Shown here one piece after another: positions 9,100-58,189 of a DNA stretch of 64,000 bases. Numbering within the stretch: the stretch's first letter is position 1; each line of letters opens with the position of its first letter. Under the pieces are notes generated by a model. It saw nothing but the letters and a program-made list of their open reading frames with translations, did no database searches and was not told the origin of the DNA. The stretch spans positions 10,400,001 to 10,464,000 of the forward strand of contig NC_091112.1 in the NCBI RefSeq assembly GCF_024713975.1. Direction: 5' to 3'. The stretch comes from Paralichthys olivaceus (taxonomy: Eukaryota; Chordata; Actinopteri; Pleuronectiformes; Paralichthyidae). The position numbers and the translations under genes were made by a program.

Positions 9100-10450
9100 A
9101 CACTTCATCTTTCAGAAATGTAAACTGAAATAACACTGACTCCTGACCCTGTGTAAATAAGATCAGCAACCTGTTGTGTACATTTTGTGCAAATATGACT
9201 CGGCTGTAAGAATACTGTCAGACTATTAGAAGACTATCATACGAGCCTGCTCTATGTCTTCTACTCTGCACTGTAATATAATCGTTGTCTGTGTTGGTTT
9301 AGCTGTCAGGTTATGAGATCTGAGGTGCACCAGTGTATAATATCCTGTTTGCTTAACTTCTAACCGCTTTGACAGGAGATTCGCTCTGCGCATGCGTTAA
9401 CTACTCAAACGTAACTAGCCTCCAGGCAGAGGAGAAACCTTCACACACCCGAAGACAAAATAATATATCCATGCAGTGTAGGAGGGGAGATTGTTCTATA
9501 GTTTAACATTATGAAACATTTTCTCAGTATCACTCCTGGAAATGAGTGCAAAGTGATTGTATCTTGTGTGGTATAGTATTCAGGGTATATAGGCATAGTT
9601 CCTCTGAGCTGAAGATGGTGGTGGTTCAGTTTGTTTTGGTGTAGTCACACAGGTTCCTTTTGCCTTGTGTGCCCAAAGACTCTTGAAATGCTCCAGGTGG
9701 TATCGTACCGTTTATCCTTTGTATCTTTCATGTTGCATTGTGGTGTATCATATTGTATCACATATTGTATCATATTGGACTGTTTCTTCTATAGTATCTC
9801 ATACAGGTTGTGCAACATCATGTTGTATTGTATGGTAATAGCAGCTTAAATGTTATAATTTTAAACTTATTATCATAGCTTTCTGTGATGTTATAGTTGT
9901 CAGTCTACATTAGACAGTGTTTGGTGCAGGGGGGGATGAAAGTCACAACAGCAGACAGGAATAGCCTGCGTGGACCAGCATGTCTTGTCGCCCGCTGAGT
10001 TAACAGAGCCACAGGAGGACACTTGATTTCAAAGTGTGTATCCTCAAAGCACACAGTGGTTACCAACCACCTCAGTATCCCTCTGAGGGGTATTGAGAGA
10101 ATAAGAGATTCAAAAAGAATATCAAAACATATGTATTTTTGTCTGACATTTTCTTTTTTCTAAAAATCTCTGATTATTTCTTGTGGGAAAACCAAAATCT
10201 GAGGCCTGAAGATTTATTGAATGATAATGAGAAGGACAGAAACTCACTCCCTGGTGTAACTACTCACAACTCACTGACATATGCAACATGTGATGGGCTC
10301 ACAACTGTGCTTCAGTGTAACGCACCGCTTTCACCTTGTCACCACCTTCTGAATGACTCCAAGCAAAAAAGTAAATCAAGTTCATTTAGGTTCCTGCAAT
10401 GTCGATTTCTTCTCTTTTTAAAATACTGTGTTTGTGTTTCCTTCTCTCAG
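9100..10450. other. Probable sytl1 first intron
   Basis: Non-coding. At 9725-9840 there is an irregular run of units like TATTGTATCA (short diverged minisatellite). No exon is recognised before the acceptor at 10450. Confidence 0.45.
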
Positions 10451-10452
10451 GG

Positions 10453-12528
10453 ATGGAGGGGGAGCAGGTTGATTCTTCTCTTGACCTGAGCCACCTGACG
10501 GACCAGGAGCAGTCACTTATCCTGCAGGTCTTACAGCGGGACTTGGAGCTGCGTCATCGTGATGAAGGACGTGTAAGGTCAGGAGGTGATTGTTTATCTT
10601 TTCAGGGGCCACTTCAGTCATGAACTCAGTACAGAAAGGGGACAACTTGATGGGGAAATAAAAATAACATACATTTCATATCAGGCACTGGACTATCACA
10701 AGCTTCCATAACAGCTGTGGGGGATGAAAATACTTCTTTAACAATATATTCCCTCATCTGGAGTTAGAGTTTTGAAATGGGCCTTTTAAGTACAATTGGG
10801 TTGATTTCTGCCCATTTTCATATACATCAAATCTTTCAGAGACTTTTTGTTCACCATTGAAAATGCTTTTTCTGAAGGTGACCTCTAAAATGGGATACAT
10901 TACAGTGGAGTCAGAGAGCATGATGTGACATTTATGAATTAAAAACACATCTGTATCTTTTAATCTTGAGGCCATGACTGTTTACATGATCCTGTACTTC
11001 AGAAACCTGTTTATGTTTACTCTGTTAGATTTATCACTATGTTGCTATGTCGTCAATAAAGGAAAATAGTTGTGACAATGTAATTTCTAATCTGATTTTT
11101 TAGTTTTCCTAACTGCACACTGCAGTGGATGATGCTACAGTATCCTCATGTGAACATGTGCCACACATAATCATGATATTCCCAAGACCCCATCATAACC
11201 ATATAATCCTATATAAACACACCACGTTGGCACAGCTCAACACTGAGAAAAAGCTGAAACCACAGAATTTTAGGGTTAATTTTCAGTTAACTTACTCCTA
11301 TTGTCAGGGTGATGAATGTACATATATATATATAAAGTCTAATGCCATATTAAATTATTATATATGTTAAATTGACATGTATTTGTCTATGACATGCTGA
11401 CTGACATACAGTACATGACACCAGTGACAGCAGTGACTACAAACCCTGTGTTAAGTTTCAGATGTCGGTCCGACACCAGCTGACGTTTGCAAGCAGGAGG
11501 TTGTGATTGTTTCCTCTTTTAACGCGGCCCTGTGTAACCACTGCAGGATCCTCCAGCAGACAGAGACCGACCCGACACGTCTGCGCACACAGTCGGGGGC
11601 ATGGTTCAGCGAGGAGTGCAGCAAGCGCCATTACAACCGGATGTCAGTCTGCGATCTTGTGCACGCCACCGTTCGCCACAGGAAGACGAAGAGCAGAGGT
11701 CAGTTTCCAGTTAATGTAGTGCTGCTTTTACTGGCTTGTGAGGCGGTTTATCTGATGTTACAGGGATATCCCAATGATGGGTCTGTGGTTGTTGCCATGG
11801 TTACAGATGTGCCCCTGAGCGGACTGTTTAATGGAGATGCGACAACACAACTCAACGACTCCTCTCCTGATGCAGAGGGTAGACTGAAGGATGAATATGG
11901 ACGGTTAGTGATGACTGGGAAACAACTTGTTCTGAGATTTTAGTGAAACTGAATTTCCTTCTCATTCTTGTTTGTTTTCTCAGGAGTCAAGGAAAACCTA
12001 GAACAAAAAGCCCTCTATCACAGGTGTGTGTGTGCATTAATATTTCTAGTTTCCATGCAGGGATTTATTTCCTAAGCAATCATCCAAATATGAACAAATC
12101 ATCTTTAATTCCAGAGTCTCCAGCATAGAAATAGTTCCTTGTCATCCAAAGGTATGAGAGTTTCTATCTCACTGTCTCTGTACCTACATAACTGTGTCTT
12201 CGTACTAATATTAAATATGAACTCATAATTCTATTCATAGACTTTGAAAGGAGAAGTGCTGGCCACTCAGAGGAACCAGAGGTGATTATAACACATCCAC
12301 TGTCACAGATTATCGTGACAAATAATTAGATTAACACTGTTTTTAACTGGCAAGTTATTCCCCTTTCTTTTCTGATGCTGACACAGAGTCGATATTCTGT
12401 ATTATTTAAATGCATATATCAATCACATGTTTCGTCAATAGTAAGTTATATTAGGAGTCTTCATAGGGCACGACATGAGGGTGTCATCTGATGGATGATT
12501 AGTAGTGACGTTGTATCTTAAAATCGTG

Positions 12529-12751: not shown

Positions 12752-14239
12752 CGCGCACACACACAGTCGCAATTGATTAATTGGCCATCCAGTCACGAAA
12801 GATGACTCAGCTATGACGTAGGTGCTGATCTTTGTCAGCATGTGTGTGTGTGTGTGTGTGTTGTAGCTCAGTGGCAGCATGATGAGTCTGTTCAGCTCAG
12901 GAGATTTCGGGATGGTGGAGGTGAGGGGCCGTATCCAGTTCTCATTGGTTTACGAGACGCAGAAGGAGGAGCTGCAAGTGAAAGTATTTCGCTGTGAGGA
13001 CATTGCTTCAGGGCGCAAGAACCGCTCTGACCCGTAAGTGACAGTGCATGCATATACATGAACTTGAATATGCATATTGCAATGGCAACATAGCAGTCAT
13101 CATCAGTCATAAAATGTATGTGTGTGTGTGTGTGTGTGTGTGTTTCACAGATATGTTAAAACCTATCTCTTACCGGACAAGTCAAGTCACAGTAAGAAGA
13201 AAACTTCAGTGAAGAAGAAGACACTCAACCCGGTCTATGATCAGACACTCCGAGTGAGACTCTCTCATTTCCATATTACATAAAGTCGCAGCCATCACAT
13301 AATTCCTCTAGCAGCTGTTTGTCCTTCAGCTCTGCTCCAAGTGTCCTGCAACATGCACTGCAGCCACTTACTTCCTTTTTTTGAAGATGCCTTACAACAA
13401 ATGATCACATTTAAAGTTAATTTCTTATAGCTTTTGCACTGTTGATAGGGCCCATAATACTTTGACCTGCCCTTCCACCCTGTCAAGTATCTGGCTGAGT
13501 CCAACCATATGATTTCAGTATAAAGTGAGGATTGGGGAGCTGCGGAGTCGGACCCTGAACCTGTCGGTGTGGCATGCCGAGCCCCTCAGGAGGAACTTGT
13601 TCCTTGGTGAGGTGGAGGTGGCTCTGGATCTCTGGGACTGGACCCACACACAGCCACTGTGGCAGGACCTGCAGCCACGGGTAGGGACAAGAAGAAATAA
13701 ATGACATGCATGCAAATACACACCCATGTAGTCACATAAGTTATGTTGTAGCATTTAGTACTCCCAGACTGATATTTACCAAAAGAAATATGATGCCTGC
13801 ATGTACATTTGCTTGTTTGTCGGTGTAGCAGCACTTTTGGCAGCTTTGTCAAAGACGAGGAATACAAGGAGGAGTGCCTCTTGTGTCTGGGAAAGCTGAA
13901 GGGAGAGGAAGACACACTGTGAATATAAACTAAGGTTTTATGTAACCTTAATCTTTTACTGCTTCCACACTTCTGCTTCCCTCCTCCCACCTGTCCGCTA
14001 TCTTTTTCCTGCTTTGTCTTTTCCTCTTCCTCTTGCATTTTGTTTTCTCTGCTCCCCTCCTCTCCTGTCATCACAGATTAATTTGAATCAAGACTCCATC
14101 AGCAGTCGTGGGACCATCATGCTCTCTATAAAGTTCATCCCAAACGGATCAGAGGGTGAGCAGGAAGCATACATCATGGATGCACAATATGTCCTACCCT
14201 AATATCGCAATCATGTCAGTCTGATACATATTTGTGTGT

Positions 14240-14299
<60 letters not shown>

Positions 14300-16262
14300 A
14301 GGTAATGGTCTGCCCCTGACAGGAGAACTTTACATCTGGCTTCGGGAGGCTCAAGGCCTCCTGACCAACAAAGGAGGCGCTATAGACTCATTCGTGAGAA
14401 GGTGTGTCATTTCTGCATTAAAATTGTTGATATTTTGTCATTGATCATCAACTGATACCAGCAAGTATATTGTCATCTCCTAAATACAGCAGGAAACAAA
14501 AGTGTTTTTTTACTGTTTCAAATGAAATACACTGAAGTTAGTTTCCTTCCACATAACCTGTTTAAACATGACCATATTTTTAAATGACTCTCGTGAAACT
14601 CCTGATATACCATGGCTGTTCAAAGTAAAAACCACAGTTAAAAAAAAAACTCATAATACATAATGTGTCCTCTCACTTCAGTGGATCCTGGATTTCATTT
14701 TAGATTGACTTAACACAAACATCTTTACTCAAACAAAAAACATATTGTTCATTCTGTCTTGTATTATGAAAAAACTAGTGTTTCAGTTTCAAATTACAAA
14801 AACTCTGAGCGTTAATGTATTTCTCATCCTCATTTTCAAGATCCACAATTCAAATACTGAGAGAATCCGATTCACAATCCACAACATTCATAATCGTATC
14901 ATTTTTTTAAATCCCACAAGCTACATACTCCCAGATGCGAGCAGTCAAAGTGGTCAGAAGACGCGTGTGGTGAAGCACTCCATCAGCCCCACCTACAACC
15001 ACACCATGGTGTATGATGGCTTCCACACCAGCGACCTGAGAGAGGCCTGCGCAGAGCTGATGGTCTGGCAGCGTGAAGGGTTAAAGAGGCACGTCTTGGG
15101 AGGGATTCGTCTGAGCTGTGGAACTGGTGAGAGTCTCTCCGCTGTTCGCTTTAACACTTTTATTTATATTCCTATCAAGACTTATGGTGAAAGACAAATT
15201 CACCTTCACATCCTGACATTTTGACATCTTGATATCTGACACCTCTGGTGATAAACATGGGTTTTGTATTCGGTATAAACTCCAGTTTCTTGTTTTTAAA
15301 CTAATGGCTGATTTTGCTTCCATAAATGTAACACACATCACAATCTCGCTTAATTTTCTAAGAAGTAGGAGCCCCAGCAATTAAGAATTTTGTAATTAGT
15401 ATGAAGAAAGTAAGCTGAAACAGTTGGCATGAGAAAGCAGTAAACATTCATCAAATCAACAGATGTGCTTGTACTACACTTATACAGAAAATCATATCAA
15501 TCACCCGCATGTCTTTGTGTCTTTCTGGCATCATAATTATGCATCAGTGAAAAATGGGAAGGCCGACTGATTATGGAGACTCCTTCCTGTTTTAGTGGCA
15601 GATAGTTAGGAAGGGAACCAACACTCTTCGCCCTTGTCAGAAAAGCTTTTCACCTACAATGGTGTTTCAGAGTGGAAAATGGTGACAGTATCATTTAGTC
15701 CAGTGGTTCACTTTCGTTTGCATTCTGTTCACTTGGCATTTCAGGCATTTCAGGCATTTCAGAGGGTCATGTTATCAGAGAGAGGTCATTTCTAGGTCTA
15801 TTTTCTCAGTGTGACATTTGCGGTTCACAGCAAAATAGTAATTGTACTTGCCACAGTTTCCCTGTCTGTATCTGTCAAAAATGTCACAAACATAAATATT
15901 TGCAACACTTCCTGGACCTGTTTCAAAGTAAGAGCAACTTTTCTGTTGACTTAATCCATTCATTTGTTCTAACAAGGTTTTTATTGTTACTGCAGGATGG
16001 GAAGATGCACAGCTTCATTCCGTAGTTTCCTGGCATTTAATACATTGACATTAGAGTACATACTCTACCTTTGGTTGAGTCAATAATGAATAAGGTATTG
16101 TTTTTGTTTTCAATGGCAGGTCAGAGTTATGGCGAGGACGTCAGCTGGATGGACTCCACTGAACAGGAGGTCGCCGTGTGGACATCCATGATTGAAAACC
16201 CAAACCACTGGATCGACGCAAAGCTAACGATCAGAACTAACCTCGCTCACAGGTCCGAGTGA
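10453..16262 (+). CDS. sytl1: Synaptotagmin-like protein 1 (Slp1), Rab27 effector
   Basis: Fourteen coding exons: 10453-10577, 11547-11698, 11807-11903, 11984-12023, 12115-12151, 12241-12281, 12564-12680, 12867-13033, 13151-13253, 13519-13680, 14077-14155, 14302-14401, 14921-15126 and 16120-16262 (1569 nt, 522 aa; human Slp1 is about 560). Residues 10-92 form the Slp homology domain, with an acidic helix ([16 protein letters not shown]) and the Rab27-contacting SGxWF motif at 58-62. There is no zinc finger, as expected for Slp1. A short Ser-rich linker follows (exons 3-7), then C2A (about 222-330) and C2B (about 360-495). Most calcium-coordinating aspartates are missing in both C2 loops, so membrane binding should be calcium-independent. 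It tethers Rab27 vesicles to the plasma membrane. The exon 3 donor, CG|GTTAGT, is weak; it was chosen because it alone keeps the frame through exons 3-7. Confidence 0.88.
12531..12559. repeat. (TG)n tract abutting the sytl1 exon 7 acceptor
   Basis: An uninterrupted TG run ends four bases before the AG of the exon 7 acceptor (TTAAG at 12559-12563), so it occupies the place of the polypyrimidine tract. Confidence 0.95.
12701..12749. repeat. (CA)n tract at the 5' end of sytl1 intron 7
   Basis: About 24 CA units starting 21 bases after the exon 7 donor. It is perfectly complementary, at RNA level, to the TG tracts before exon 7 (12531-12559) and before exon 8 (12841-12862). Confidence 0.95.
12841..12862. 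repeat. (TG)n tract at the 3' end of sytl1 intron 7
   Basis: A TG run ends four bases before the exon 8 acceptor AG (12865-12866). Together with the CA tract at 12701-12749 it puts complementary repeats at both ends of a 186-base intron. Confidence 0.95.
13119..13142. repeat. (TG)n tract next to the sytl1 exon 9 acceptor
   Basis: The TG run is followed directly by TTTCACAG and exon 9 at 13151. Confidence 0.95.
14232..14297. repeat. Long (TG)n tract next to the sytl1 exon 12 acceptor
   Basis: About 32 TG units with one TA interruption, ending four bases before the acceptor AG at 14300-14301. It is the longest of the four acceptor-linked TG tracts in this gene. Confidence 0.95.
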
Positions 16263-16996
16263 CACTGACGCACAGACGCGCATGTTCAAAAAACAGTCGG
16301 ACTGAACTCTCAGCACAAAAGCACATTTAACCTCTTCACTGATACACACATTGTTTATTTCCGCTGTTTATTCATAGACACACACTTGGAGTCAGTAGTG
16401 GTGCAATATTGTGAATTAATGGCGTAGATCAGAAATATTTAGTTTTGAAACTCTGAAATCTGCTTTCGTTTCAAATGTCTTATTTGTATATTTTTTTCCC
16501 TATTTGAAAAAAGTGCATTTGTAATAGTGTTCTGTACTTACTGATATTATATTAAAGTGAAATTATTTAATGTTTAGAATTAAATTACCCCAGGCTAATT
16601 TACTGTTATTGTTTTATATTTATTTCTAGTTTTAACTCAACCCTTTCAATCACTTTCGAATACCTGTGCGTCAGAAAAATAGCACTAATCCCTGATCACT
16701 TCACTGTCTTCACTGTAACTGGATGTGATGGCAAAGGCATTCAGCTTTTCATTTTAATGGAGTCGCTGACTACCACCTTGTGGTCAGACCTTGTAGGTAT
16801 TCTGTAATTCATTAAGCAAATTAAAGAAGAGAAAAGGGTCAAGAACACAAGAAGAAAAGACAGTTTCATTTAATGTGTCCACTCTTTGATTCCATCTGCC
16901 ACTTCACTCATCAAAGGAAAGTAGAGGATCATTAGTGGACTCTTTATCACAAGAGGGATTACCCCTGTCGAGCAGAGGGTGTTATTTGGTTTCTAA

Positions 16997-17002
16997 AATA
17001 AA
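16997..17002 (+). terminator. Candidate polyadenylation signal of sytl1
   Basis: AATAAA about 735 bases after the stop codon, followed by a GT-rich segment (gtgtttgtgtcttgt). An earlier variant ATTAAA near 16551 is also possible. Confidence 0.5.
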
Positions 17003-17019
17003 GTCTTAATATTGCTTTA

Positions 17020-17460
17020 TGTGTTTGTGTCTTGTAAGTTAAAAATCTATTTTAATGTAAGGTCACATCAGCTGATGTTTTGCAATGCTGTGCTTATTCA
17101 AAGTAATACTCATTCAATATTCTATGTGAAATGCTCTGAATGGACTGGATATATTACTGGGTCTTGAGTCTCGCTTATTAACTTGTAAAACATAAATCAT
17201 TAAAATAAATGTAAAAAATGAGTTGAAATGTAGTCAATTTGGATTCTTTTAGGATTCCTCTGGGTCTGGTTGCCAACTTTGCCCTTTCAGGTTTTATGCT
17301 TTTTTGTTTGTAGTGAGATTAAGTGACCCCACAGCTTTGCCCTGCTCAGTGATGGTGTCTGTGATGGACTTTGTGATTTGTGTGAGGGTTGTCAGTCAAA
17401 ATGTCATCAGTGAGCATCAGAGGAAATCTTCACAGTGGTGCAGAGGATGATGACATGAGA
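17020..17460. other. Intergenic stretch between sytl1 and calaxin copy 1
   Basis: AT-rich spacer with no coding signal. It grades into a GC-richer promoter area from about 17460. Confidence 0.5.
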
Positions 17461-17694
17461 GGAGGAAGCACGGAACTCTGGCGCCCCCTAGGGGAGGCGC
17501 GCCCCACACTTTGAAAAGCCCTGTCATTTATTATTAACACACTCCGTTTCCTGCGTATGCGCCCTCTTGTAGTCTACGTTGTTGCCATGGTGACCTCGTG
17601 TATCAACGCCACAGCCAGCGGAGGAGCCACGGACTGTAAATAAAAAGTCCGGATCTCACGTGTCCTGATCGTCCTGGTTCTGAGCAGGTCACAG
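17460..17694 (+). promoter_or_regulatory. Calaxin copy 1 promoter with RFX X-box
   Basis: GTTGCCATGGTGAC at 17581-17594, about 100 bases before the start codon, fits the X-box consensus GTHNYYATRRNAAC at 13 of 14 positions. RFX factors bind such boxes in promoters of ciliary genes, and calaxin is a motile-cilium protein. The ATG inside the box opens an upstream frame of 18 codons (17586-17642, stop included) if transcription starts before it. The flanking sequence is GC-rich and lacks a TATA box. Confidence 0.6.
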
Positions 17695-19819
17695 ATGTCT
17701 GCCATGAAGAGAAAGTCGCTCCACACTCTGGCAGAAACTCTGTCTAAACAAGTGCAGCACTGTGAGTACAAACATCTGTCCGATTCGCTCAGGCTAGGCT
17801 AAACTAAGCTAAGCCATAGTTTCCGTTACGCGCCACTGCTGTGATTGTTTAACTGACACCGAGAGCTAAAGCTAATGTTATAGATGGCAGGAGAAAAGTG
17901 ATCGATTATTGTTTTGGTCGCAGTCAGCAAGACAGAGGTGGAGGCTCTGATCGGACTGTACCATGACCTGCTGGGGGAGTCAGCTGCTCCGGGCAGAGCA
18001 GTCACAGGTCTGGACAGAAGCAAGTTCAGGAATTTCCTGTTCAAAACGTTCGAGATGACTGATAGCATGATCATGGACGAAGGTATTTAATAGTTCCTAT
18101 TTTAGTTTGTTACTTTCTTCTTTGATCTGTTGATCAAAGCTTTTACAAATGATTGACATTGGCTCTTATTTCCACTGACCAATCCTATTTGTATAATTCT
18201 ATATGTTACTTATAAATGATACAAAGAGAAGTGCTATATGATTAAATACTATTATGATTAGTTGAATTATATGTTTTTGTTATTGAACTCCCATTTGCCT
18301 AAGTCTTACTCAGAGAAGTCTTGCTCATTTATTATTGGAAACTTTACTCTTCATGTTCCCTTTTTGAAGACACATTTTACATGCTCAAGTTATCTGCTAT
18401 CATCCTAATAAAAGTCTCAAGCTTTTGTTAGCTTAGCATTTAGAAGTAAGTGTAACTGATCGCTCTCTATTTGACCCATAATACGTACCAAACTACTAAG
18501 AAACCTCTTTGAGGATTTGGGAATGAATTTAAATTAATTTATGGACCTGTGAAATAAAGCGTTGCCTAAGATTCAGTAATAACCCGCAACACTTTGGACG
18601 CAGAGCGCTATGGCTGTTTGATGACCTGAGCATGTCCTGCATTTCACTGACTATCTGTCCTGCAGTCTTCAGGACATTTGACAAAGACAACGACAGCTTC
18701 ATCAGTAAGAAAGAGTGGGTCGAGGGACTTTCTGTTTTACTCCGAGGGACCTTGGAGGAAAAAATTAAATGTAAGCTGTCAGATTCTCACATATAAAAAA
18801 ATCAGTTAAGAGGCATTATCCAGGTAATAACTCTTCTCTTTATGCAGACTGCTTCCATGTGTACGACTTGAACGGTGACTACTACATCTCAAAGGAGGAA
18901 ATGTTTCACATGCTGAAGGACAGCCTCTCCATGCAGCCCACAGATGAGGACCCTTACGAGGGAGCCAGAGAACTGGTGGAGATCACACTCAAGAAGATGG
19001 TGAGGGGATACAGTTACAGCTCTGACCCTATACCATTATTATTATTATACCATTATATTGGTGTAATATGTTAAGTTACGTCTGCAGACAGTAACAACTC
19101 AAACCTTAAAACTCACTTGTACTATTCAATTTTTTTTTCGGAACATTTTTATCGTAATTTTATTCTCAGTTCTCTCTTTTATTCTGTTCAATGTATTATT
19201 ACTGATTTGGAAGATGGCAGTGTGCACAGACGCAGAGGTTTTGCTCTCCCTGAAGTGGATTATTGGAAGAACTGAGAGGTTCTTAGTAACTTGCACTTCC
19301 AGACTGTAAACAAGCTCTTATCCAAGTACCATTAGAGAACTTAAAGTGCAATAATATCAAGCTCTGTATGTTCAATGTTTTTGTTGTAATACTCTGTTTA
19401 TTTTTATTTTTGCCTGTTTTTTATATTTATGTATTAGACTGTAATGTCTTTATTTGTCTAAATATTATTTTCTGTACCACTGGGACACTTAATTTCTTTG
19501 TACACTTATCTATGATTTCATGCCAAAATGGCTGCTAAGAAAAAACTCTATGGTCATTTTGTTTTTCTATGGGCAGGACCATGACCACGATGGGCGGTTG
19601 TCATTTGACGACTTTGAGAAGTCAGTGAGAGAAGAGAATCTGTTACTTGAAGCTTTTGGAAACTGCCTCCCTGACACCGAGGTAAGAAGGAATTAAAGGA
19701 TGATGGGAAATGTATTAACTTAGAAATGTTTAAATCAGAAGTTCTTAATCTTACTTCCTGTTTTTCTTCATTTCCAGAGTATTGAGACATTTGAACAGAA
19801 TGTATTTCAGAAGAAGTGA
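17695..19819 (+). CDS. clxn: Calaxin (EF-hand calcium-binding protein 1), copy 1
   Basis: Six exons: 17695-17761, 17924-18082, 18666-18770, 18848-18999, 19577-19681 and 19778-19819 (630 nt, 209 aa; human calaxin is 211). Calaxin is the calcium sensor that binds axonemal outer-arm dynein and its docking complex in motile cilia and sperm flagella. Three EF-hand loops are visible: 81-92 ([12 protein letters not shown]), 117-128 ([12 protein letters not shown]) and 162-173 ([12 protein letters not shown]). Loop 1 has Ser and loop 2 has Tyr where Gly is usual at position 6. Loop 3 ends in Asp rather than Glu. All junctions are GT-AG. The start follows an X-box promoter. A near-identical paralogue lies 6 kb downstream, and rbm48 converges from the right, its stop codon only 132 bases away. 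Also known as efcab1. Confidence 0.92.
19150..19520. repeat. Old transposon-like insertion in calaxin intron 4 (copy 1)
   Basis: The segment contains the phrase 'ctgtaccactgggacacttaatttc', common in 3' tails of fish retroposons (two pieces of it are visible here), and the segment reappears at 24800-25180 in intron 4 of copy 2. It was therefore present before the duplication. Exact ends and family are not determined. Confidence 0.5.
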
Positions 19820-19913
19820 AACCATGAAGAAATCATATTCATGTTGGATTTTCAGATGTATATTTAATAATACAAACGTATATTGCTGTTTACATTGAGA
19901 TAAAAAATGTTTA

Positions 19914-19919
19914 AATAAA
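19914..19919 (+). terminator. Polyadenylation signal of calaxin copy 1
   Basis: AATAAA 95 bases after the stop codon, giving a short 3' untranslated region that ends within a few tens of bases of the 3' end of the converging rbm48 coding region (19952). Confidence 0.6.
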
Positions 19920-19951
19920 ACAAGTTGCCACAAGAAATCGAGCTGGTGATT

Positions 19952-22900
19952 TCAAATCCGACGACGTGGTTTCATCTTTTTCTCCACTGGTTTGACAACA
20001 GGAACTGATTCCACCTGAGAAAGATGACAGGGATTTTAACTGGTCTGAATCAGGAAATCTAGACTACGTTGATGGAATATTGTCATTTTGATCAGTTCAG
20101 ATTATAGGTTACCTGTTTCATTGTGTTCCTGATGAGGCTGACTGTTTTGTTCAGCGATTCATCCTCCATGTTTAGTTTAGGTGGTTCAGGTAGCTTTGGA
20201 CCAATCAAAGGCTCATTTTTCCCAGAAACAGCTGTCTGTGTTTGGCTTGCTTGTATTTTGCGTTTCCTGTTCTCCAGGTTTGTAGTCCTCGGGACAAATC
20301 TGACTGCAGGAGCCTGATCTGGAGTCAGTCTGAGTTCTGTGTCTCTGTCTGAAGAGGTTTGACTGAAACTTAAATCCTGCGCTGGCTCCTGTCTCGTGTC
20401 AATTATGGCATTGTGTAATGTTCCCATTTTATCTTCTGTTGGTACAGTCCCATGTTGATTTTTATGTCCATAATAATGGCATTCCTGGGGAGGTAATGGC
20501 AGTAAGGGAAAGCCTGAATAATGGCTTAAGTTTAAATTCTCTCCTGTATTATCATTGTCAGGCCTTCGATCGTGTCTGGAGATGATCTTCTCTGATGTGG
20601 TGGCTGTGTTTGATGTTGTGGGCTCCTCCTTTCCTGCCTCCTTCTGTTCCTTTTCTCTCACTTTAAAATTATAGGGAAAAAAAGGCAAATATTATACTGA
20701 GGGTTCAATTCAAATTGGTAATTCCAGCTATATTACAACAATAAAATACAAATAAAGAGCAATTTTTCCTCTGTTATATGAAATGATAGAGCTGGAACAT
20801 TTGAAATGTCCCAATGTTTTAAAAGATAAGTTTACACAGAAAGATTTTATATATATATATATATATGTATATAATTGATGTTAAAGTGTACCTTTATTCC
20901 GAGCAGCCCTCATTATGTATCTCCTTCGGTCCTGCAGTTTTAACTTGGTGTCTTCCACACTTTCATATTCTGGGACGTAGCACACATGGAGAACACCGCC
21001 ATAGAAACTCTTCTCATCCATGTGTCGTTTGGCTGCTCTGAAGAAAAAAAAAAAATGAATTGGGGTAATTTTTAATTTTTTTTTAAGTTCTGTTCAACTT
21101 TGCCAGTACGGTATATTGAAAATGAGGTTGAGTCAGATCCTGAACCTGGCACTGGCGAGTCTCTGGAACTTGACCAGGTAGACCTCCGTGAATTCCTCAG
21201 CAGGATACTCATCCAGGGGCCTGTACTCCTCCACAGCTCCGTACAGGGCACATCGCTGGATCAGCTCCGTCATCACTCCGATGGCGGGGACTCCTTGGAC
21301 CATCAGGTACGTGGACTCTAAATTGATGGTGTACACCTGATGATCATACACAAGACAAATTATCACACTATGCATCATCAAAACACTTGGCTGAGATATC
21401 TGTTTGCCCAGTAATAAGGGAGATAAAGATGTTTTTTTCTTTGAGCAACTGCTTTTATAATTAGTGAAATTCCATATCCACAAGAAAAGATGGACAGATT
21501 TTTCTATGAAGAGCTGCATCAATATGGCACCAAGCAGAAAATAAGGCAATTAAAACAAAAGTTTGGAAAACACTCATGGACTGATGACACATGACATTGA
21601 AAGTTTGAAATTTTACTCCATTTTCTTTAATTAAATTTACTTATTTTGTATGTCTTTTCTCATTCTCTTCATCATTTCAATTGAACATTTGACAATTTAT
21701 GTCTGCCTGCCAAGTTTTAGAAGATTTTACTGTAGAATGTCTGAGAAAATTAAAGGGTACTTTTTCATTATGGCACCAAAACTTGCTGATTTGAGATATA
21801 ATTATAAAAAACTCCTTGGGAGGTGACACATATATTTCACCTCACTCTTGTTCATGGTGACATGCAGACACTGAGAATCACCGTGAAATATCTGTCACCT
21901 CTAAAGGATTTAAATACATATAAATATATATGTATATTTATATTTAAAAACCTCTGGAGTGTCCCAAAAGCTTGAATTACTTCCTGAAGATGCCGCCATG
22001 TTTCTGGAAACACAATTCCGTTCGGAGAACTTCAAAATAAGAGGGCATTCTCCATCACCTACCCCTTGCCTCCAATGCATACCGGAGTGAAATATCTTAT
22101 TTTGAAAAGGAGGGGGTGAAATGATGACGGTTGTTGAGGATTTTTTGACCATCCTTACACATTACTGCATATGCCACTGTATGTTATGTATATTTCACTA
22201 TATCTGTACAGGAGAATAGTGCCTGTCTAATCCACAGATGCTTCCCTCTTTCTCTAAGCAGTACGCAAGGTCAGGTTATAGATAAAGGACCAACCAACAG
22301 TACATTGTGGTGTCTACGCTCAGGGACTTTCATATCTACTGTAATTCAGATGCGCCAGACAGAGAGGCACCAACTTCAACTCTCACCAACTTCAACTCTT
22401 TTCTAAATTACACCAGGGGCAAGATGCAAGGACATAATGTGGTTTAGGAATGCATATTTAGACTTAACTTTCCGATAGGATGCAAACACCTACATGTTGC
22501 ATAGAGAGTGACAGCAATTCTAGCCATTCATGGACGTGCTGTTAGAATGGGTGACGCAAGTAGAGGAAGATACATGGGGATGCTGTGGGAGACATCTTCA
22601 GACTTGGGGGTGACAGTTGCTCATGATACTCTGTTAGCATTTGTATATTGTTCAACCTTCTGGTCTCGTTGATGCATCAAGTCAATATTAAACTCTTTAG
22701 ACATCAGCTGCTGCCTAAGTTCTTCTTTTACCAGCTTCCAAAAAACAATGGTGAGAAGCTGTTGTTAAAGTATCATTAGCCAATTAATGTTCGTGCTCTG
22801 TGACCTTCCAAGATTTTTTAAATATTGAAGTCACTTTAACCCAGTCCACTGAAATACCTTTGCTCTCTTTGACACATGTACAACCTGCTGTTTGTGTCTG

Positions 22901-25900
22901 TTATTGCAGGTCTGTAGCCCCTTTTAAGGTTCCATTATTAACATTAACCATCACTGACACAATATGTCATTACAATAGACAATGCTATAATTTAATGCTT
23001 TAATTTAGTTATTATGGTCTGCATTTGCACAAATTACTCAAACATAAAATAAACAAAAAGCGATTATTTACACAATTCGAATGTCTTTCATAAGAAGCAA
23101 CAGGAAAGTAAAAATAACAGTTTGCTTCAATATTAGTTCATTTCCCTTTATTTTAACAGGATAAGCCAGCCTGTATCAATATTGCTGTCCGAGGAGTCAT
23201 TCATATAAATACTGAAGACACGAGAATAAAACTTGGTTAAAAAGCTTGTACAAAAACACAGAATACATTTATTCAGCCTAGAGAGAACATAAATATTAAT
23301 GAGTATGCCTTATTCTACTGTTAATAAAAACTTTGATCCTTTGAGGTTTTTCGATCTACTTTGGTACAGTTGTAGTCAATAAATTGCTACATGAGTAGTG
23401 GCATCTCTGTGCATCATTGCTATTACTATTCATCATCTTATGTAGCGGTCTCCAAATAGTGTGGCATCAAAGGCAGCTGCTTCATAACAGTGTGGCATCA
23501 AAGGCAGCTGCCTCGAAACAGAGTGGCGACAAAGACAAAGACTTTACACATAAGTGACAGTTTCTGTTGCCACTCGTATAGGCAAGTGCGATACTGCCAC
23601 GATTTTATTTTGCCCTTACTATTTCCTATTTCCAACTATGTCACAAATATCTGCTTTGCAGAGAAAGTCGATCCTTTCTCTGGCAGAAACTCTCTGTAAA
23701 CAAGTGAGGCACTGTGAGTATAAACATATGCCTGATCAGCTCAGGCTAGGCTAAGCTAACTATGGTTTCCGTTTAATGCTACTACTGTGATTTTTTAAAC
23801 AAGCCTGAGAGCTAAAGCTAATGCTATAGATGGCAGGAGAATAGTAATTATTGTTTTGGTCGCAGTCAGCAAGACAGAGGTGGTGGATTTGATCGAACTG
23901 TACTATGAGCTGCTGGGGGAGTCAGCTGCACCGGGCAAAGCAGTCAAAGGTCTGGACAGAAGCAAGTTCAGGTATTTCCTGTTCAAAACGTTCGACATGA
24001 CTGACAGCATGATCATGGACAGAGGTAAGTCATGTGTTTTACTATATATTTATATTTGTTTACTTGCTTGTGCCAGATTAATACCTAATTCCTGAGTTTC
24101 CTTGAAACAATATGGTTTCTATAGTTCCTATTTTAGTTCTGAAACAAATTTTTTCTCAAGTCTGTTCTTAAATTGTCTTTTAACCAAAGCTTTTACAAAT
24201 GATTGACATTGTCTCTTAATTTCCACTGAACAGTCCTATTAATATAATTCTATCTATTTATTATTTATGAATGTTCATAGAAAAACACTTATTGACATTG
24301 TAAATCGAAGTGCTACACAAATAAGCTGTAGCACTTTTGCTGTTTGATGATCTGAGCATGTCCTACATTTCACTGACTATCTGTCCTGCAGTCTTCAGGA
24401 CATTTGACAAAGACGACGACGGCTTCATCAGTAAGAAAGAGTGGGTCGAGGGACTTTCTGTTTTACTCCGAGGGACCTTGGAGGAAAAAATGAAATGTAA
24501 GAAATGTCAGATTCTCACATATAAAAAAATCAGTCACGAGGCATTATCCAGGTAATAACTCTTCTCTTTATGCAGACTGCTTCCATGTGTACGACTTGAA
24601 AGATGACAATTACATCTCGAAGGAGGAAATGTTTCAGATGCTGAAGGACAGCCTCATCATTCAGCCCACAGATGAGGACCCTTACGAGGGAGCCAGAGAA
24701 CTGGTGGAGATCACACTCAAGAAGATGGTGAGGGGATACAGTTACAGCTCTGACCCTATACCATTATTATTATTATACCATTATATTGGTGTAATAGTTT
24801 TTTTATCGGAACATTTTTATCATAATTTTATTCTCAGTTCTCTCTTTTATTCTGTTCAATGTATTATTACTGATTTGGAAGATGGCAGTGTGCACAGACG
24901 CAGAGGTTTTGCTCTCCCTGAAGTGGATTATTGGAAGAACTGAGAGGTCCTTAGTAACTTGCACTTCCAGACTGTTAACAAGCTCTTATCCAAGTACCAT
25001 TAGAGAACTTAAAGTGCAATAATATCAAGCTCTGTATGGTCAATGTTTTTGTTGTAATACTTTACATTTAATTTTATTATCGCCAGTTTTTTTTATATCT
25101 GTTCATTAGGCTGTAATGTCTTTATTTGTCTAAATATAATTTTCTGTACCACTGGGACACTTAATTTCTTTGTACACTTCAAAATGACAATTTGTTTACC
25201 TACTATTTCATGCCAAAATGGCTGCTAAGAAAAAACTCTAAAGTCATTTTATTTTCTATGGGCAGGACCATGACCAAGATGGGCGGTTGTCATTTGACGA
25301 CTTTGAGAAGTCAGTGAGAGAAGAGAATCTGTTACTTGAAGCTTTTGGAAACTGCCTCCCTGACACCCAGGTAAGAAGGAATTAAAGGATGATGGGAAAT
25401 GTATTAACTTAGAATTTTTTAAGTCAGAAGTTCTTTATCTTATTTTCTGTTGTCTGTTTTTTTCCCCAGAGTATTGAGACATTTGAGCAGAATGTATTTC
25501 ATAAACAAGTGCAGTGAAACCATGAAGAAATCATATTCACATCAGATTTTCAGATATATTTTGTAATAGCCACTAAGCAGCCTGCATTTGTGGGGTACTA
25601 AATATTAATGTTGATTTGACATGTCACTTATGTTCTGAAGTTATTCAAATTTTTAGTTTTATTTTACTTATTTTTCTAATTCCTCCTTCTATTTCCATTC
25701 TCTTTTTCATTTTAAAAAGTTTGTAACTGTGCCCTCGATACTGTTATTGTACAAACTATAAAATCGTCAAAAAATAAATAGGTGACTGCAAGTTATACTG
25801 ATACTGTAAAGTTGTCCAAAATGATGAAAAACTAGTTGGTTTACAACTGTATCAGCCTTTGTTAGAAATTATGGATCCAAGAGATTTTACAGTAGAGTAA

Positions 25901-26579
25901 TAAAGAAAGAGCATAATGCCCTTTTCAATTCAAAATAATGAACTTTGAGGCTGAATTTCTCAAAAGATCATACAGTAAATATACTTGATACTGAGTGAGT
26001 GAACAGTCAGGATGGTCTTGAGGACAACTTTTGACTACCTTTGTAGGAAATTAAAGGGATTTTACAGTGGCAGAAAAGATTGGCTCGCTCCGTATCATGG
26101 ACTACCTGCATTTGCCATACATTCTGTAATACGGGCGCACTTGAAATCAGGAAAAGACGAACGTCTGCTCACCTGACCGCAGTGTAAAATCCTCTAAAAA
26201 CTTGACATACAGACAGTGAGCGTCACCATGAACAAGAACCAGGTGAAATGTCTGTGTCACATCTCAAGGATTAAAAAAAAATAGATTTATTGAATATGAT
26301 CTTTTATCTAAGGTGGGTTTAATCTTTATATACAGTCTAAACCATAGACTGTGGTTTAAACAAACGACAGAGCACACCATCACAGTGTCGCTCGGGTGTC
26401 TCTGATCTTGAGACCCAGCGTTTCCTTCACAGAGAGGAACATGTTCTTACCTTTACTGCTTTGGCGTTTCTTCCCTCTCGGTACTTGGGTCTAGAAATAC
26501 AAACTTTTCTCTGTTCGTGGTGTTTATAAACCTCCGGAGTGTCCCAACAGCTTGAACTGCTTCCTGAAGATGCCGCCAT
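19952..26579 (-). CDS. rbm48: RNA-binding motif protein 48
   Basis: Five coding exons in gene order: 26579-26451, 21336-21146, 21037-20892, 20660-20113 and 20014-19952 (1077 nt, 358 aa; human about 367). Exon 1 encodes the conserved N terminus starting MAASSG and ending [12 protein letters not shown]. Exons 2 and 3 encode an RRM (about residues 44-125: [40 protein letters not shown]). The rest is a charged, low-complexity tail ending in KPRRRI. RBM48 works with ARMC7 in the minor (U12-type) spliceosome. Intron 1 is 5.1 kb, far larger than the others, because it contains a complete calaxin gene on the other strand plus a broken copy of exon 1. The exon 1 donor is AAAG|GTAAGA. The gene is divergent with pex1, an arrangement also found in mammals. 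Confidence 0.9.
20850..20868. repeat. (TA)n microsatellite in rbm48 intron 3
   Basis: A short run of TA dinucleotides near the donor of the 146-base exon. Confidence 0.8.
21820..21900. repeat. Short inverted-repeat (hairpin) segment in rbm48 intron 1
   Basis: AGGTGACACATATATTTCAC at 21821-21840 and GTGAAATATCTGTCACCT at 21883-21900 are inverted repeats with a two-base indel, around a loop of about 42 bases. A related sequence at about 26208-26265 lies in the same relation to the intact exon 1, so it probably belongs to the duplicated intron 1 flank. Confidence 0.45.
21943..22115 (-). pseudogene. Truncated duplicate of rbm48 exon 1 and its upstream region
   Basis: On the minus strand an ATG at 21999 begins [19 protein letters not shown], matching the first 19 residues of the intact exon 1 at 26579 (three differences). 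The match then stops in AT-rich sequence: the second half of the exon and its GTAAGA donor are missing. Upstream, about 110 bases of the 5' flank are also duplicated (22000-22115 matches 26580-26695). The only in-frame GT, CAGAG|GTTTTT, is a poor donor. It could, in principle, yield a shortened protein joined to exon 2 in phase. Most likely it is a non-functional relic of the segmental duplication. Confidence 0.8.
22130..23440. other. Intronic spacer between exon 1 relic and calaxin copy 2
   Basis: AT-rich sequence inside rbm48 intron 1. I see no coding exon; it probably consists of diverged mobile-element remains, but no family was identified. Confidence 0.4.
23458..23534. repeat. 31-base direct repeat upstream of calaxin copy 2
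   Basis: Two 31-base units (23458-23488 and 23489-23519), each beginning agtgtggcatcaaaggcagc, followed by a partial third beginning agagtggcgacaaag. The array ends about 105 bases before the copy 2 start codon. Confidence 0.85.
23638..25517 (+). CDS. Calaxin copy 2, nested in rbm48 intron 1
   Basis: Six exons: 23638-23713, 23866-24024, 24392-24496, 24576-24727, 25266-25370 and 25470-25517 (645 nt, 214 aa). It is colinear with copy 1, with the same exon phases and highly similar introns. Protein differences are concentrated in exons 1, 2 and 4. The ancestral start aligns with an ATA here (ISALQRKS against MSAMKRKS), so translation must use the ATG three codons upstream. EF loops are at 84-95 ([12 protein letters not shown], canonical), 120-131 ([12 protein letters not shown], Lys at position 3) and 165-176 ([12 protein letters not shown]). 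All splice sites remain GT-AG and the frame is open, so it is not an obvious pseudogene. Its upstream region has lost the X-box core. It may be expressed differently or be decaying. Confidence 0.82.
24800..25180. repeat. Old transposon-like insertion in calaxin intron 4 (copy 2)
   Basis: Colinear with 19150-19520 in copy 1, with small differences and an insertion near 25183-25200. It shows that the intron was already occupied before the gene was duplicated. Confidence 0.5.
25773..25778 (+). terminator. Candidate polyadenylation signal of calaxin copy 2
   Basis: AATAAA about 255 bases after the stop codon. The short-range signal used by copy 1 is not conserved at the equivalent place. Confidence 0.4.
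26048..26196. mobile_element. Possible miniature inverted-repeat element
   Basis: GGATTTTACAGTG near 26055 and CAGTGTAAAATCCTC near 26181 are inverted copies about 145 bases apart, with unrelated sequence between. This is the layout of a MITE. No convincing target-site duplication is seen, and no transposase is encoded. Confidence 0.35.
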
Positions 26580-26830
26580 GTTTCTGGAAACACAATTCCG
26601 TCCGGCACACTTCAAAATAAGAGCGTATTCTCCATCACCTACCCCTTGCCTCCAATGCGTACCGGCGCGAAGTATCTTATTTTGAAAAGAAAAATGTAGC
26701 TCATTATCATCTACTTTGGTCTGGCTGGGCAGAGTCAGAGACATCGATCGAATATGAACTTGTTGCACTTCTTACGTTAGCAGTGGAACCTGTCCGGTTG
26801 TTACACAGCTGTTCAGGCTATGTGGACATT
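26580..26830. promoter_or_regulatory. Bidirectional promoter between rbm48 and pex1
   Basis: Only 251 bases separate the rbm48 start codon (leftward, 26579) from the pex1 start codon (rightward, 26831). There is no TATA box in a suitable place. A few CpG-containing motifs lie at 26650-26675 and 26740-26755. The head-to-head arrangement is the one known for the mammalian orthologues, so a shared promoter is very likely. About half of it (the rbm48 side) is duplicated at 22000-22115. Confidence 0.65.
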
Positions 26831-36578
<9,748 letters not shown>

Positions 36579-45538: not shown

Positions 45539-48500
45539 CTAGTTACAGTCATATACAAAGTCATAGTTGCTAGGTTCTTTGGGAATGGGGGGCGGGGCCT
45601 CTGGAATCTGGATGTTCTCTAGATCCAAGAGGCGGAGCTTCATCTCCATGGAGAGCAGGGTGTCCATGTCCGATTTGGTGTAATCGCTGGTCATCTCCTT
45701 CCCGAGGAGGGCGTTTAGACCGTCTGTCCACACGCAGTACTGCAGAGACACGGGTACATCCACAATACATCAAACACATCAGCACCGAAGAGATAAACTT
45801 AATTCTTTTGAAACTCCTCAAACTATAATTAAACATGAAATGTTCCCAAACCGACAGGAAGCCGCTGACGTACAGACGCCATCTGCTTAAGAGACATGCG
45901 GGCATAAAAAGAACTTGAGCACCAAGGGAGAAAAGACTTTGTTCACTGTGACTCAGGAGAAATGGAGCAGGGACACCGTCTTCTCTCATGTCCTAATTAC
46001 AAACTTCTTAATTTCATTTTTTTTTTTAATTTTTTTTAAGTTTCTGGATACAAGCAGATACAGCTTATCTTCATAGGAACTCACAGGAAGGTTCACTTTT
46101 ATTTTGCCAACTTTTCAAAGATTTTATTTGATTTCTAAAACCAAAACCATGAAACTGTCAAGTCCTTGAGTTGGACTGGTTGAGTAAGATACCAATATAT
46201 GCCATCACATATCACCTCAGCCATGATTCTTCAAAAAACTCTGAGTGTATTAAACCATTTAAGTGGTAAAACAAATAAATATTATATTATATGTTGTCAG
46301 TATTGTGGATTTTATTAATTTAGCTTCATCTAATCTTAATTAAGTGCTTGTTAATTGATCATATTTATTCTTTGATAAAGTAATAAAGTTCATGAACATT
46401 AACTACCAGAGAAAGAGTGTTCACTGTGCATGTTGCATATGAGCCACTTGAAAATGCTGTGGTGATCATTTCCACTACATATCACTTGCATATAGATTTT
46501 ACTCGCATATTAAAAAAAAAAAAAAATCCTCTCTGTGCAATCCCACTGGTTCATTCTGTGTGAAACTGTCAACGACCGCAGGGCCGGACAGCGCTGCCTT
46601 ACCTCGTGCTTGTCAGGAGCGATAAAGTTTAAATACTCGTCGGACTCGTAGAGGACAGAGAAGGCCAGCTCTAACACCTCCTGGGGAGAGGAAAGTGAGA
46701 GAGGCAGGGAGAGAGAGAGACAAAATGGTGCAAAGACAGCAGGAGATGCAGATAGTGAGTGTGAGGAGAGAAAAAGAGAAGGGAGAACAGGTGAGATTTG
46801 CATCGCAACATAACCTCCCTCTGCTCCTCATGTCTCATCTCCATCTGTTACATCAGCTGCACATCAGGTAAGTCAAAGAGAGAAAAACACCTTTAGATAC
46901 CAAATATTAAAGAGGACATTATTTTAGGTACATTCTGTCCAAATCCACTTCGGTCTTACGGCGGGAAATAAAATTGTTGCGGTGTGAGGACAGAACGGGG
47001 ACACAGAGATCCAGATTTGTATACATGAAAGCAATTCATTAAATGTGTGCTGGCAATCTGCGTGAAATTAGGATCTGATTTAGTACGGCAGAAGGCAATT
47101 ACACAATCTGGGTGCACGACCTAGACACGCTTAATGAGGCAGAGCTCAAAAGACGCAGCTCAGTGGTGGGTTCAGGAGGATCAGAAAAGAAAACCGTGTA
47201 GTGATGCTGAATGGAAATATTTCTCACTGATGTAATGTAGGATCAAAACATTTCATGGAGGAAGAAGAATTCAATTCAAGCAGAACTTAGGTATCTGAGC
47301 ATATTCTACTAATACTAAAGTCTGAGTCTTATAGTATTGTAGTATTGTCAACTGTTCTGTATAGAGGTTTTTCTGCCCATTTACTAAAAGAAAAAACTGC
47401 ATAATACAGCTCTGATGTGATCACGTTTTTAATTATCAATATCAAAGAATAATTTTTTGGTTGTGTTATTATCATTGTATGATTTCAAATATAATCATTG
47501 CCCCTTAACCCTAACGCCTGCATAGAAGCACAAGCTAACTCCAACCAATACCAACTTTTTCATGAGTATAATCTCCGCATTGCATTGATGGGTTTGTTTG
47601 CAGCACAAGTCTATAACCACAAGGACTTTTCTCATGTTTTGGCGTAATAAAAAAGACATTGAGTTTATTTGTTAATGCTCTTTTTAAAGTACTGTCTTCT
47701 GCACCTGCTTTTTAGATTTCCACACAGATCTGAGCCGCTGTAAATTTAATGAACATTCGTAAACACGGCTAAGGGTGCACTCATCCACACTTATCATATA
47801 TCCACCAGTCATTTGCGTGATCCTCCTTTTGAAAAAGCACATAAAGCAGAAAAGGGCTTCGCTTCAGTAATGAGATGCGGCGCAGATGACAGGCGAACGG
47901 CTCTTCCAGGTCGCTGCACCTGTTCTCTAAACGACACGCATTACTTGAGGCACAGGCGGTGGCGGAAACGAGGGAAATGTGGCTATGTGCTATCAGTGGT
48001 ATAATTGCAAAAAAATATCATAATGACAGAGATCAGAGTGCTGCTCATGATGAACACATTTTGGAGGAATTGGGAAACTGAAATTTGTCTGAAAAACACA
48101 AATGGTGCACAAGCCAGCTCTGTTCGGATGCCCGCAGAGGTGACTTTGGGCTGGCCTTGTAACAGTGAGTAATGAAATGTGCTTGTGCTCTCATTCACAC
48201 GTCTGGGACAGGCCCGCAGATCCCCGCCGGGTCATTCTTCTCGACCTGCGCTTATCGACAAGGTAATAAAAGAGACAAAGCAGGGAGGAGGCATGCACCT
48301 TTGTCTTCATGGCTATTTTCCAAGATCCAATATATCAGAGTCCCATGGGTGGGAGCGTGATTGAAGGTTTGGAGAGGCAAAGTGCCGGAGAATAAGAGCT
48401 GATGTGTACACAGACGTGGAAAAGATGCCTCTCTCATCCTGGTTAGGGTACCGCTGTGTTAATCTCAAATTTAAGCAGGGCAAAGAAAGGATGTCAGTGT

Positions 48501-48877
48501 GTTCTGGCATCTCTTTGGTGATTTGCTTCTGCGGCTAAAGGACGATTCTGTTATTTATTTCTAAACAATGCCACCGATGACTATGTCTTTCAGCGCCGAG
48601 CCCCAAGACACAAGTTGTTGTGTTATTTCCCAAAGCAAAATGATGTTACTGACACTTTTTTCTGTAACACTAATGCACACATGAACACACTCTCCCCCCA
48701 CACAAACTCCACAAACATGCATACACACGTGTACACACACCTTGTTTTGCTTCAGGGCTCCCTTCTCCTTCATGTGAGGACAGTCTTTGCCGGTGATAAC
48801 AGCTTTGATATCAGCCACGGGCACTGCAGAGAGAACAGAAGTGAGTTCACAACAACAACAGCAACAACAACAACAGC

Positions 48878-48933
<56 letters not shown>

Positions 48934-57900: not shown

Positions 57901-58189
57901 GATATATGCGAATGTGTGAAAATTGATAAAATAAAGGGTTAGGGTAAGTGTTATTGTATCGACTAATGACTTTGTGGAGTTAACACTATGACCTCTCTCT
58001 GCTGGCTACTGGTTGGTTGACTCACAGGATCGGGCGGGACTGGAAATCTTCCTGATTCATTCTCTCGGACTGGCGTATCTTCAGGATCTCCGTGTAGCTC
58101 AGATTCTGCAGGCGACTCTTGAACTGGTCCAGGGAATTAGGCTTGAGAGTGAGCGCTCGCATTATCTGCTCCCTCACCACCTGCATTAC
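45539..58189 (-). CDS. elmo1: Engulfment and cell motility protein 1, C-terminal part
   Basis: Partial: six coding exons in gene order, 58189-58026, 54025-53913, 49654-49547, 48823-48741, 46680-46603 and 45739-45539 (747 nt, last 248 residues; human ELMO1 is 727). ELMO1 binds DOCK1-family proteins to form a Rac exchange factor used in engulfment of dying cells and in migration. The first exon here starts VMQVVREQI and contains [14 protein letters not shown], downstream of the ELMO domain. A helical segment and the atypical PH domain (KFWYCRL through the KHE/YCVWTDG region) follow. The end is a proline-rich PxxP tail (APPPIPKEP), the DOCK SH3 ligand. The ending [10 protein letters not shown] is what points to ELMO1 rather than ELMO2. 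Earlier exons are not found before the right edge, so the intron upstream of 58189 exceeds 5.8 kb. Confidence 0.9.
48850..48934. repeat. (CAA)n trinucleotide microsatellite in elmo1
   Basis: About 28 CAA units with two CAG interruptions, which is (TTG)n in the sense of elmo1. It ends about 26 bases upstream of the acceptor of the 83-base exon (48823). Confidence 0.95.
49095..49500. mobile_element. Non-autonomous DNA element with 'agactgtatataaa' ends
   Basis: It begins 'catagatagactgtatataa' and ends 'atccagtctatgtta', with an internal 'tccagaaatgaagc' phrase. This matches a very common teleost terminal-inverted-repeat element. It lies in the elmo1 intron, a few tens of bases from the next exon (49547). 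No coding capacity. Confidence 0.6.
51425..51775 (-). repeat. Dispersed teleost repeat, family A, reverse copy
   Basis: Reverse copy in an elmo1 intron: 'acctccaccaaggaccaatc' at its left end, then 'ccatgaattattctct' and 'accaagtttcatggaaatc'. It is close to full length. Confidence 0.6.
52570..52665 (+). repeat. Dispersed teleost repeat, family A, 5' fragment
   Basis: Forward fragment with 'gacgcaaaaactcctggatgg' like wording and 'gaagaatccattaaatt', then the similarity stops. Confidence 0.5.
54735..54840. mobile_element. Fragment of the 'agactgtatataaag' element
   Basis: Starts 'catagactgtatataaagat' and includes 'ggaggaagtgg', then runs into a TA microsatellite. A second, truncated copy of the family at 49095-49500. 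Confidence 0.5.
55740..56340 (+). repeat. Dispersed teleost repeat, family A, tandem pair
   Basis: A near full copy (55740-56035: 'gagcaggattacgcaaaaaa', 'ttccacgaaactc', 'ggaataattcatgg', 'ggggactgttgggcc') is followed by a partial copy at about 56190-56340 ('cacatttagggaactgatat'). The last part recurs at 57880-57955, including a ggttagggtaagtgtta tail. Confidence 0.55.
56745..57055 (-). repeat. Dispersed teleost repeat, family A, reverse copy
   Basis: Reverse copy with 'gaattattagccggaat', 'aaatattcctggatctgc' and 'tcaccaagttctgtgaaaat', ending 'taacctccttggcgaag'. Confidence 0.55.
57175..57540. promoter_or_regulatory. Candidate conserved non-coding element in elmo1 intron
   Basis: A low-repeat, balanced-composition block between two dispersed repeats, with several TAAT/ATTA homeodomain-type cores and octamer-like 'atgcatattttcaatc'. 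There is no coding potential. Its compositional difference from its repeat-filled surroundings suggests constraint, but conservation itself cannot be seen from one sequence. Confidence 0.25.

Follow-up and report, generated by a model that had tools for sequence, protein, structure and literature searches.

We analysed a 64,000-nucleotide stretch of the genome of Paralichthys olivaceus (contig NC_091112.1, positions 10,400,001 to 10,464,000; hereafter the window, whose own numbering we use throughout) in which two copies of calaxin (clxn/efcab1), a sperm-tail and cilia gene, share a locus with rbm48, an RNA-splicing gene. Both calaxin copies are on the plus strand and were read by translation as six exons, with GT/AG at every intron. 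Copy 1 (17695-19819, 209 amino acids) has exons at 17695-17761, 17924-18082, 18666-18770, 18848-18999, 19577-19681, and 19778-19819. Copy 2 (23638-25517, 214 amino acids) has exons at 23638-23713, 23866-24024, 24392-24496, 24576-24727, 25266-25370, and 25470-25517, and it lies in intron 1 of rbm48. Self-BLAST of the region shows colinear duplicate pairs, in line with the original prediction for this locus, and these direct repeats are of two kinds: one is a calaxin unit (17688-19869 and 23640-25568), the other a unit of 167 bp around rbm48 exon 1. Within the calaxin unit, 17688-18085 pairs with 23640-24027 (84.4% identity), 18126-18219 with 24176-24270 (84.2%), and 18604-19869 with 24330-25568 (87.1%). 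Self-BLAST and translation thus bear out the claim of two six-exon calaxin genes in the same orientation with common introns. The claim that both are complete holds in that both read through all six exons, with the proviso that copy 2 is complete only through a different start codon.

The best match to copy 1 in the PDB (residues 4-207) is 7rro, which we take to be the bovine calaxin chain (E = 2.3e-83). Copy 1 also matches 8j07 (E = 2e-80) and, over residues 7-206, 5x9a (E = 1.9e-64). The top match other than calaxin has E = 3.9e-20. Copy 2 is 60.6% identical to human calaxin (123/203), and Pfam finds EF domains in both copies. On this near full-length similarity, which is above that to other EF-hand families, we assign both genes to calaxin (CLXN/EFCAB1). 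When we searched the genome for calaxin (all genome searches were of a 588-Mb, 25-contig assembly), 9 of the 31 matches fell at these two loci and the remaining 22 were only 26-53% identical; no third calaxin gene was found in the assembly.

The rbm48 gene is on the minus strand. Its intact first exon, with start codon and donor, is at 26451-26579 (from the genome search and an open reading frame, or ORF). Exon 2 (21146-21336, with a weak donor, GTTCAG), exon 3 (20892-21037), exon 4 (20113-20660), and exon 5 (19952-20014, with the stop codon) were delimited from ORFs. If exon 1 (26579-26451) joins exon 2 at 21336, then the joined exons make a single ORF of 1077 nucleotides (358 amino acids). 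Residues 10-351 match the RBM48 chain of 7dvq, presumably the human protein (E = 4.6e-74), and no Pfam family was found for rbm48 at E = 0.001. The near full-length match, together with a complete ORF through consensus splice sites, identifies the predicted gene as RBM48. Intron 1 (26450-21337, 5.1 kb) has the donor AAAG/GTAAGA and the acceptor CATCAG/GTG, and it is from the splice sites only that we predict splicing of rbm48 across calaxin copy 2. The coding exons of copy 2 (23638-25517) are wholly inside this intron (21337-26450) on the opposite strand, so that by position the two genes form a nested pair, as the original prediction had placed them.

A second, broken exon 1 of rbm48 lies between exon 2 and calaxin copy 2. 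This relic (21943-22111, minus strand) retains the first ~19 codons and ~112 bp of 5' flank, and its 3' half and donor are gone. It forms the second kind of direct repeat, in which 21943-22109 pairs with 26523-26689 (167 bp, 91.0% identity, E = 4e-62). The genome search with rbm48 (E up to 1) gave six matches. They comprise a single occurrence of exons 2-5, next to calaxin copy 1, a single intact exon 1, and the relic (residues 1-22, with E = 0.3 by itself). A single rbm48 is therefore spread over both units, as had been claimed. The best donor-like site left downstream of the relic scores 7/9 by a crude consensus count, versus 8 for the true donor, and a cryptic donor may be used there.

Beyond the intact exon 1 lies pex1, which is head-to-head with rbm48 and spans 26831-34600 on the plus strand (the 3' end is an estimate). 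Pfam finds PEX-2N in two exons, the first coding exon (26831-26944, E = 1.8e-10) and the one after it (within 27954-28163, E = 2.5e-23); two more ORFs match AAA. The interval between the start codons of rbm48 and pex1 (26580-26830, 251 bp) has a ratio of observed to expected CpG of 0.87, versus 0.40 for the window, and the relic keeps ~112 bp of these 251 bp. At the other end of the locus, ~100 bp upstream of the ATG of calaxin copy 1, is an X-box-like (RFX) motif, GTTGCCATGGTGAC (17581-17594, plus strand), with one mismatch to the consensus GTTGCCATGGNAAC. An X-box upstream is what is expected of a ciliary gene. With up to two mismatches, the scan gave eight strand-wise matches at five places in the window (the mean for shuffled sequences was 1.72, and 0 of 100 shuffles reached 8). 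A looser pattern gave one site (760-775) versus 1.31 expected. Another strong X-box-like site, GTTGCCATGGTTAC, is at 11791-11804, with no gene assigned near it. The outer edges of the locus thus apparently keep their original flanks, the X-box-like motif on the left and pex1 on the right. Figure legends of PMC4527844 name efcab1, rbm48, and PEX1 among the genes of GrnC regions in elephant shark, zebrafish, and human chromosome 7. These legends, which do not give the gene order or the species for each gene, fit an old efcab1/rbm48/PEX1 neighbourhood.

The middle of the locus is a new edge. Sequence derived from rbm48 ends at ~22111 and sequence derived from calaxin begins at ~23640; the junction between them (22112-23637) consists of two repeats plus ~40 unassigned bases. 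Long copies of repeat A (22132-22746) elsewhere are mostly 77-87% identical, and copies of repeat B (22748-23620) elsewhere cover query positions 2 to ~877 piecewise. Since the junction is almost all repeats, without them the sequence upstream of rbm48 would nearly abut the start of calaxin. A tandem duplication junction would have this appearance if repeats had later opened it. We dropped the idea of homology that continues past the junction because the tests were inconsistent and 22747-23637 is mostly dispersed repeat: its alignment to the sequence upstream of pex1 was reached by 103 of 200 shuffles and ranked 33, 1, 4, and 47 of 256 controls in four scoring schemes, and its alignment to the sequence upstream of calaxin copy 1 was reached by 1 of 200 shuffles and ranked 79, 121, 184, and 49 of 256. 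Rfam gave 0 matches at gathering scores for 14000-30000.

Repeats also lie at the broken edges. On the left, an array of repeat D stops at the truncated exon 1; the D family stretch covers 21482-21949 by local BLAST against fetched copies, with genome-search matches at 21700-21861 and 21883-21940. On the right, the homology of the calaxin 3' untranslated region (UTR) stops at 25568 and is followed by repeat E, by repeats C and D, and then by 136 bp of intron beside exon 1. Repeat E (~25561-25696; three other genome copies, with similarity from 25559-25562) begins a stretch at 25561-25842 whose remainder is unassigned, repeat C (25843-26184) is short and has many copies, and repeat D (26184-26314, from the genome search) is of the same family as at the left edge.

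A shared intron 1 in both units was considered and rejected: 21700-21940 and 26185-26307 are one dispersed repeat family, and 25569-25842 begins with another. For 25569-25842 versus the left intron 1, 200 of 200 shuffles scored below the direct alignment, and 4 of 200 reached the inverted one; this stretch beat all 268 window-segment controls in three of four scoring schemes. For 26185-26450, 176 of 200 shuffles reached the direct alignment (not significant) and 0 of 200 the inverted one; this stretch beat all 264 window-segment controls in all four schemes. For both stretches, inverted scores were equal or higher in most schemes. An inverted self-BLAST match (21813-21861 with 26222-26270) was likewise rejected as homology between the units, being dispersed repeat.

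These comparisons give good support to a tandem duplication in place that reached from the start codon of calaxin to a point a little upstream of rbm48 exon 1. Order and orientation are the same in both units, and the middle junction is repeats and ~40 bp. The exon-1 pair differs at 15/167 sites, a divergence compatible with the 43/298 seen over the 3' UTR and introns 1 and 5 of calaxin (Fisher P = 0.11). To the fuller reading, in which calaxin and rbm48 were duplicated together and opposite parts of rbm48 were then lost, we give a probability of about 0.62. The ancestral order would have been calaxin (plus), rbm48 (minus), pex1 (plus), with calaxin and rbm48 tail-to-tail and rbm48 and pex1 head-to-head. 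A tandem duplication of ~4.4 kb, with one end at the calaxin start codon and the other ~110 bp upstream of where rbm48 starts, would have left the genes at the middle junction with truncated promoters from birth: ~112 of 251 bp for the left rbm48, and no upstream sequence for the right calaxin. Later losses would have removed the 3' half and donor of the left exon 1 and exons 2-5 on the right, with a dispersed repeat at each broken edge. Once nothing was left of the right exons 2-5 and the 3' end, transcription starting at the pex1-linked promoter could have run from right exon 1 on through calaxin copy 2, with splicing of that exon to exons 2-5 of the left unit. The outcome would be a single rbm48 across both units, with calaxin copy 2 in its intron.

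The original prediction was right about the anatomy and mostly sound in its interpretation, which was tandem duplication and then complementary loss and which is partly supported as a whole. The left half of the loss can be seen directly: exon 1 there is without its 3' half and donor. The other half, that the right unit lost exons 2-5, would be the simplest reading. Several points weigh against it. Exons 2-5 had no counterpart in the right unit in the genome search, so their former presence there is something we infer, and they might never have been copied. The similarity of intron 1 between the units derives from repeats; that of 25569-25842 to the left intron 1 beats most controls, yet its inverted score about equals its direct one, which makes it unusable. 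The same map, including the missing match, would follow from one complex replication event with template switching (of the type of microhomology-mediated break-induced replication or fork stalling and template switching, MMBIR/FoSTeS), in which the fork skipped exons 2-5, copied calaxin, and jumped back to the sequence upstream of rbm48. Right exons 2-5 would then never have existed, and only the extra exon 1 would have decayed later. Such an event requires two template switches, the middle junction by itself already fits plain tandem duplication, and the repeats at the broken edges are what later losses would lead one to expect; we consider it possible but rather unlikely.

We find it improbable that calaxin was copied alone into intron 1 of rbm48 and that the exon-1 fragment came from a separate small duplication. 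Gene duplication and retroposition are among the sources of overlapping genes in a passage of PMC2151771, but the common introns rule out retroposition of calaxin, and a single duplication would predict just the order and orientation seen for the fragment and calaxin, whose divergences are also compatible. An assembly artefact (mis-joined or uncollapsed haplotypes) might be suspected from the repeats at each junction that we examined. It is unlikely, and we give it very little weight: between the copies, 14% of sites (43/298) in the 3' UTR and introns 1 and 5 are different, with indels and different repeat insertions, and exons 2-5 were found at a single place in the entire assembly, unlike what a duplication of haplotypes would give. 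Divergence of 14% is far above usual heterozygosity in fish.

The divergence between the calaxin copies is uneven. From exon 3 to intron 5 (18626-19725 in copy 1 coordinates, plus strand), we found 42 differences in 1039 aligned bases (4%), versus 77/551 (14%) outside this tract. Such clustering was reached by 0 of 2000 permutations, with sites 18083-18603 (most of intron 2) left out; Fisher's test gives P = 4e-12, an anti-conservative value, since the same data served to choose the tract. The homogenised block of ~1.1 kb is probably due to gene conversion, with local constraint as the alternative. The copies have a noncoding divergence (K) of 0.189 for intron 1 and 0.15 for intron 5, and neutral rates in fish are roughly 3-10e-9 per site per year, which would put the duplication at the order of 8-30 million years. 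With such an age, related genera should show or lack the structure.

Calaxin copy 2 has lost both ancestral Met codons (ATG to ATA and ATG to TTG), and a new in-frame ATG is present at the junction, three codons upstream, where copy 1 has AGG. No X-box-like motif was found upstream of copy 2; with up to two mismatches, there is no match from 17595 to 31709. The third residue of its middle EF loop is Lys, versus Asn in 3 of 3 outgroups. By residue arithmetic, this loop appears to correspond to the E130 loop of PMC11178939. In that paper, the last Glu of the loop (zebrafish E130, Ciona E118) is required for calcium binding and dispensable for dynein docking, and the single change E130A abolishes calcium binding with dynein docking retained.

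Substitutions between the copies give no sign of purifying selection on copy 2. The ratio of nonsynonymous to synonymous rates (dN/dS) is 0.71 (NG86), 0.86 (YN00), or 1.00 (LWL85), and 31 amino-acid differences were observed versus 30.5-31.9 expected under neutrality. Under neutrality, the chance of no stop codons in copy 2 is P = 0.17-0.27. Among the 31 changes, nine could be placed on copy 2 and three on copy 1, and 19 were not polarised, so there is no clear asymmetry. There are 0 internal indels in 630 aligned coding bases (apart from a 6-nucleotide in-frame change in the tail and a 9-nucleotide N-terminal extension), versus 10 events over the 891 noncoding bases compared, which exclude intron 2; the absence of frameshifts is suggestive only. 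With coding changes close to the neutral expectation, copy 2 may be in decay. It may be a pseudogene whose frame is intact by chance, a calcium-blind docking variant, or a gene kept by conversion.

For rbm48, transcripts from the pex1-linked promoter would have to cross calaxin copy 2 in antisense, as well as the 11 sense-oriented AATAAA hexamers that we counted in intron 1. According to a passage of PMC3192792, a host gene may show intron retention, exonization, and early polyadenylation as a result of nesting; the protein-coding cases given there are tandemly arranged pairs. These cases are thus no parallel to our locus, for which we predict reduced or tissue-dependent output of rbm48. A possible polyadenylation signal for rbm48 (ATTAAA, 19863-19868, minus strand) lies inside the 3' UTR of calaxin copy 1, and the aligned site in copy 2 is disrupted.

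Elsewhere in the window, exons at 45542-58291 (minus strand) resemble those of elmo1, including a C-terminal stretch, and Pfam gave no match for the one exon tried. A long trinucleotide run at 48778-49104 reads on the plus strand as ~28 glutamines; its minus-strand reading is poly-Cys. A weak match to FYVE_2 at 10390-10620, presumably of the synaptotagmin-like or rabphilin type, scored 22.0 bits, under the Pfam cut-off of 27.2.

With calaxin copy 2 wholly in intron 1 of rbm48 on the other strand, the locus resembles other opposite-strand nested genes, which account for ~63% of human nested genes as cited in a passage of PMC3192792. It differs in that host and guest appear to have been duplicated together in tandem, and the nesting to have arisen in this way with no insertion; in addition, host exons are drawn from both units. 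It is also like gene fission by duplication and degeneration, as in the monkey king family, in which partial loss in duplicates reportedly leaves complementary parts of one gene (a case ascribed to Wang, Yu and Long 2004). PMC2684099, in a passage citing this case, describes retroposition followed by fission. The halves produced by fission become two separate genes, whereas one set of rbm48 exons was found in the genome, and its halves would remain one transcription unit over both duplicates. Finally, two tandem calaxins with one homogenised block recall tandem duplication with interlocus gene conversion. The difference is that exons 2-5 lie between the calaxins, so a deletion of one calaxin by unequal crossing-over would also remove these exons and destroy rbm48, and the pair may be hard to lose.

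These features could be combined in a speculative scheme of duplication-locking, which we think unlikely: rbm48, an essential gene, would be assembled in cis from two tandem duplicates that had broken in reciprocal parts, and its intron would retain copy 2. The calaxin pair would then be protected while conversion homogenises it, and copy 2, which has a new start codon and an altered calcium loop and for which no X-box-like motif was found, would be free to become a calcium-insensitive dynein-docking variant. We found no description of this arrangement among the open-licence papers listed, judged by titles and the openings of abstracts. It is a variant of nested-gene formation and duplicate degeneration, with no new kind of system. 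If the proposed route is true, then a nested gene and a long intron can arise without insertion, by the duplication of two neighbours and the loss of opposite halves of one of them, and such gene pairs would be predicted to resist loss. The locus also supplies, in copy 2, a naturally occurring calaxin paralogue whose calcium loop has changed.

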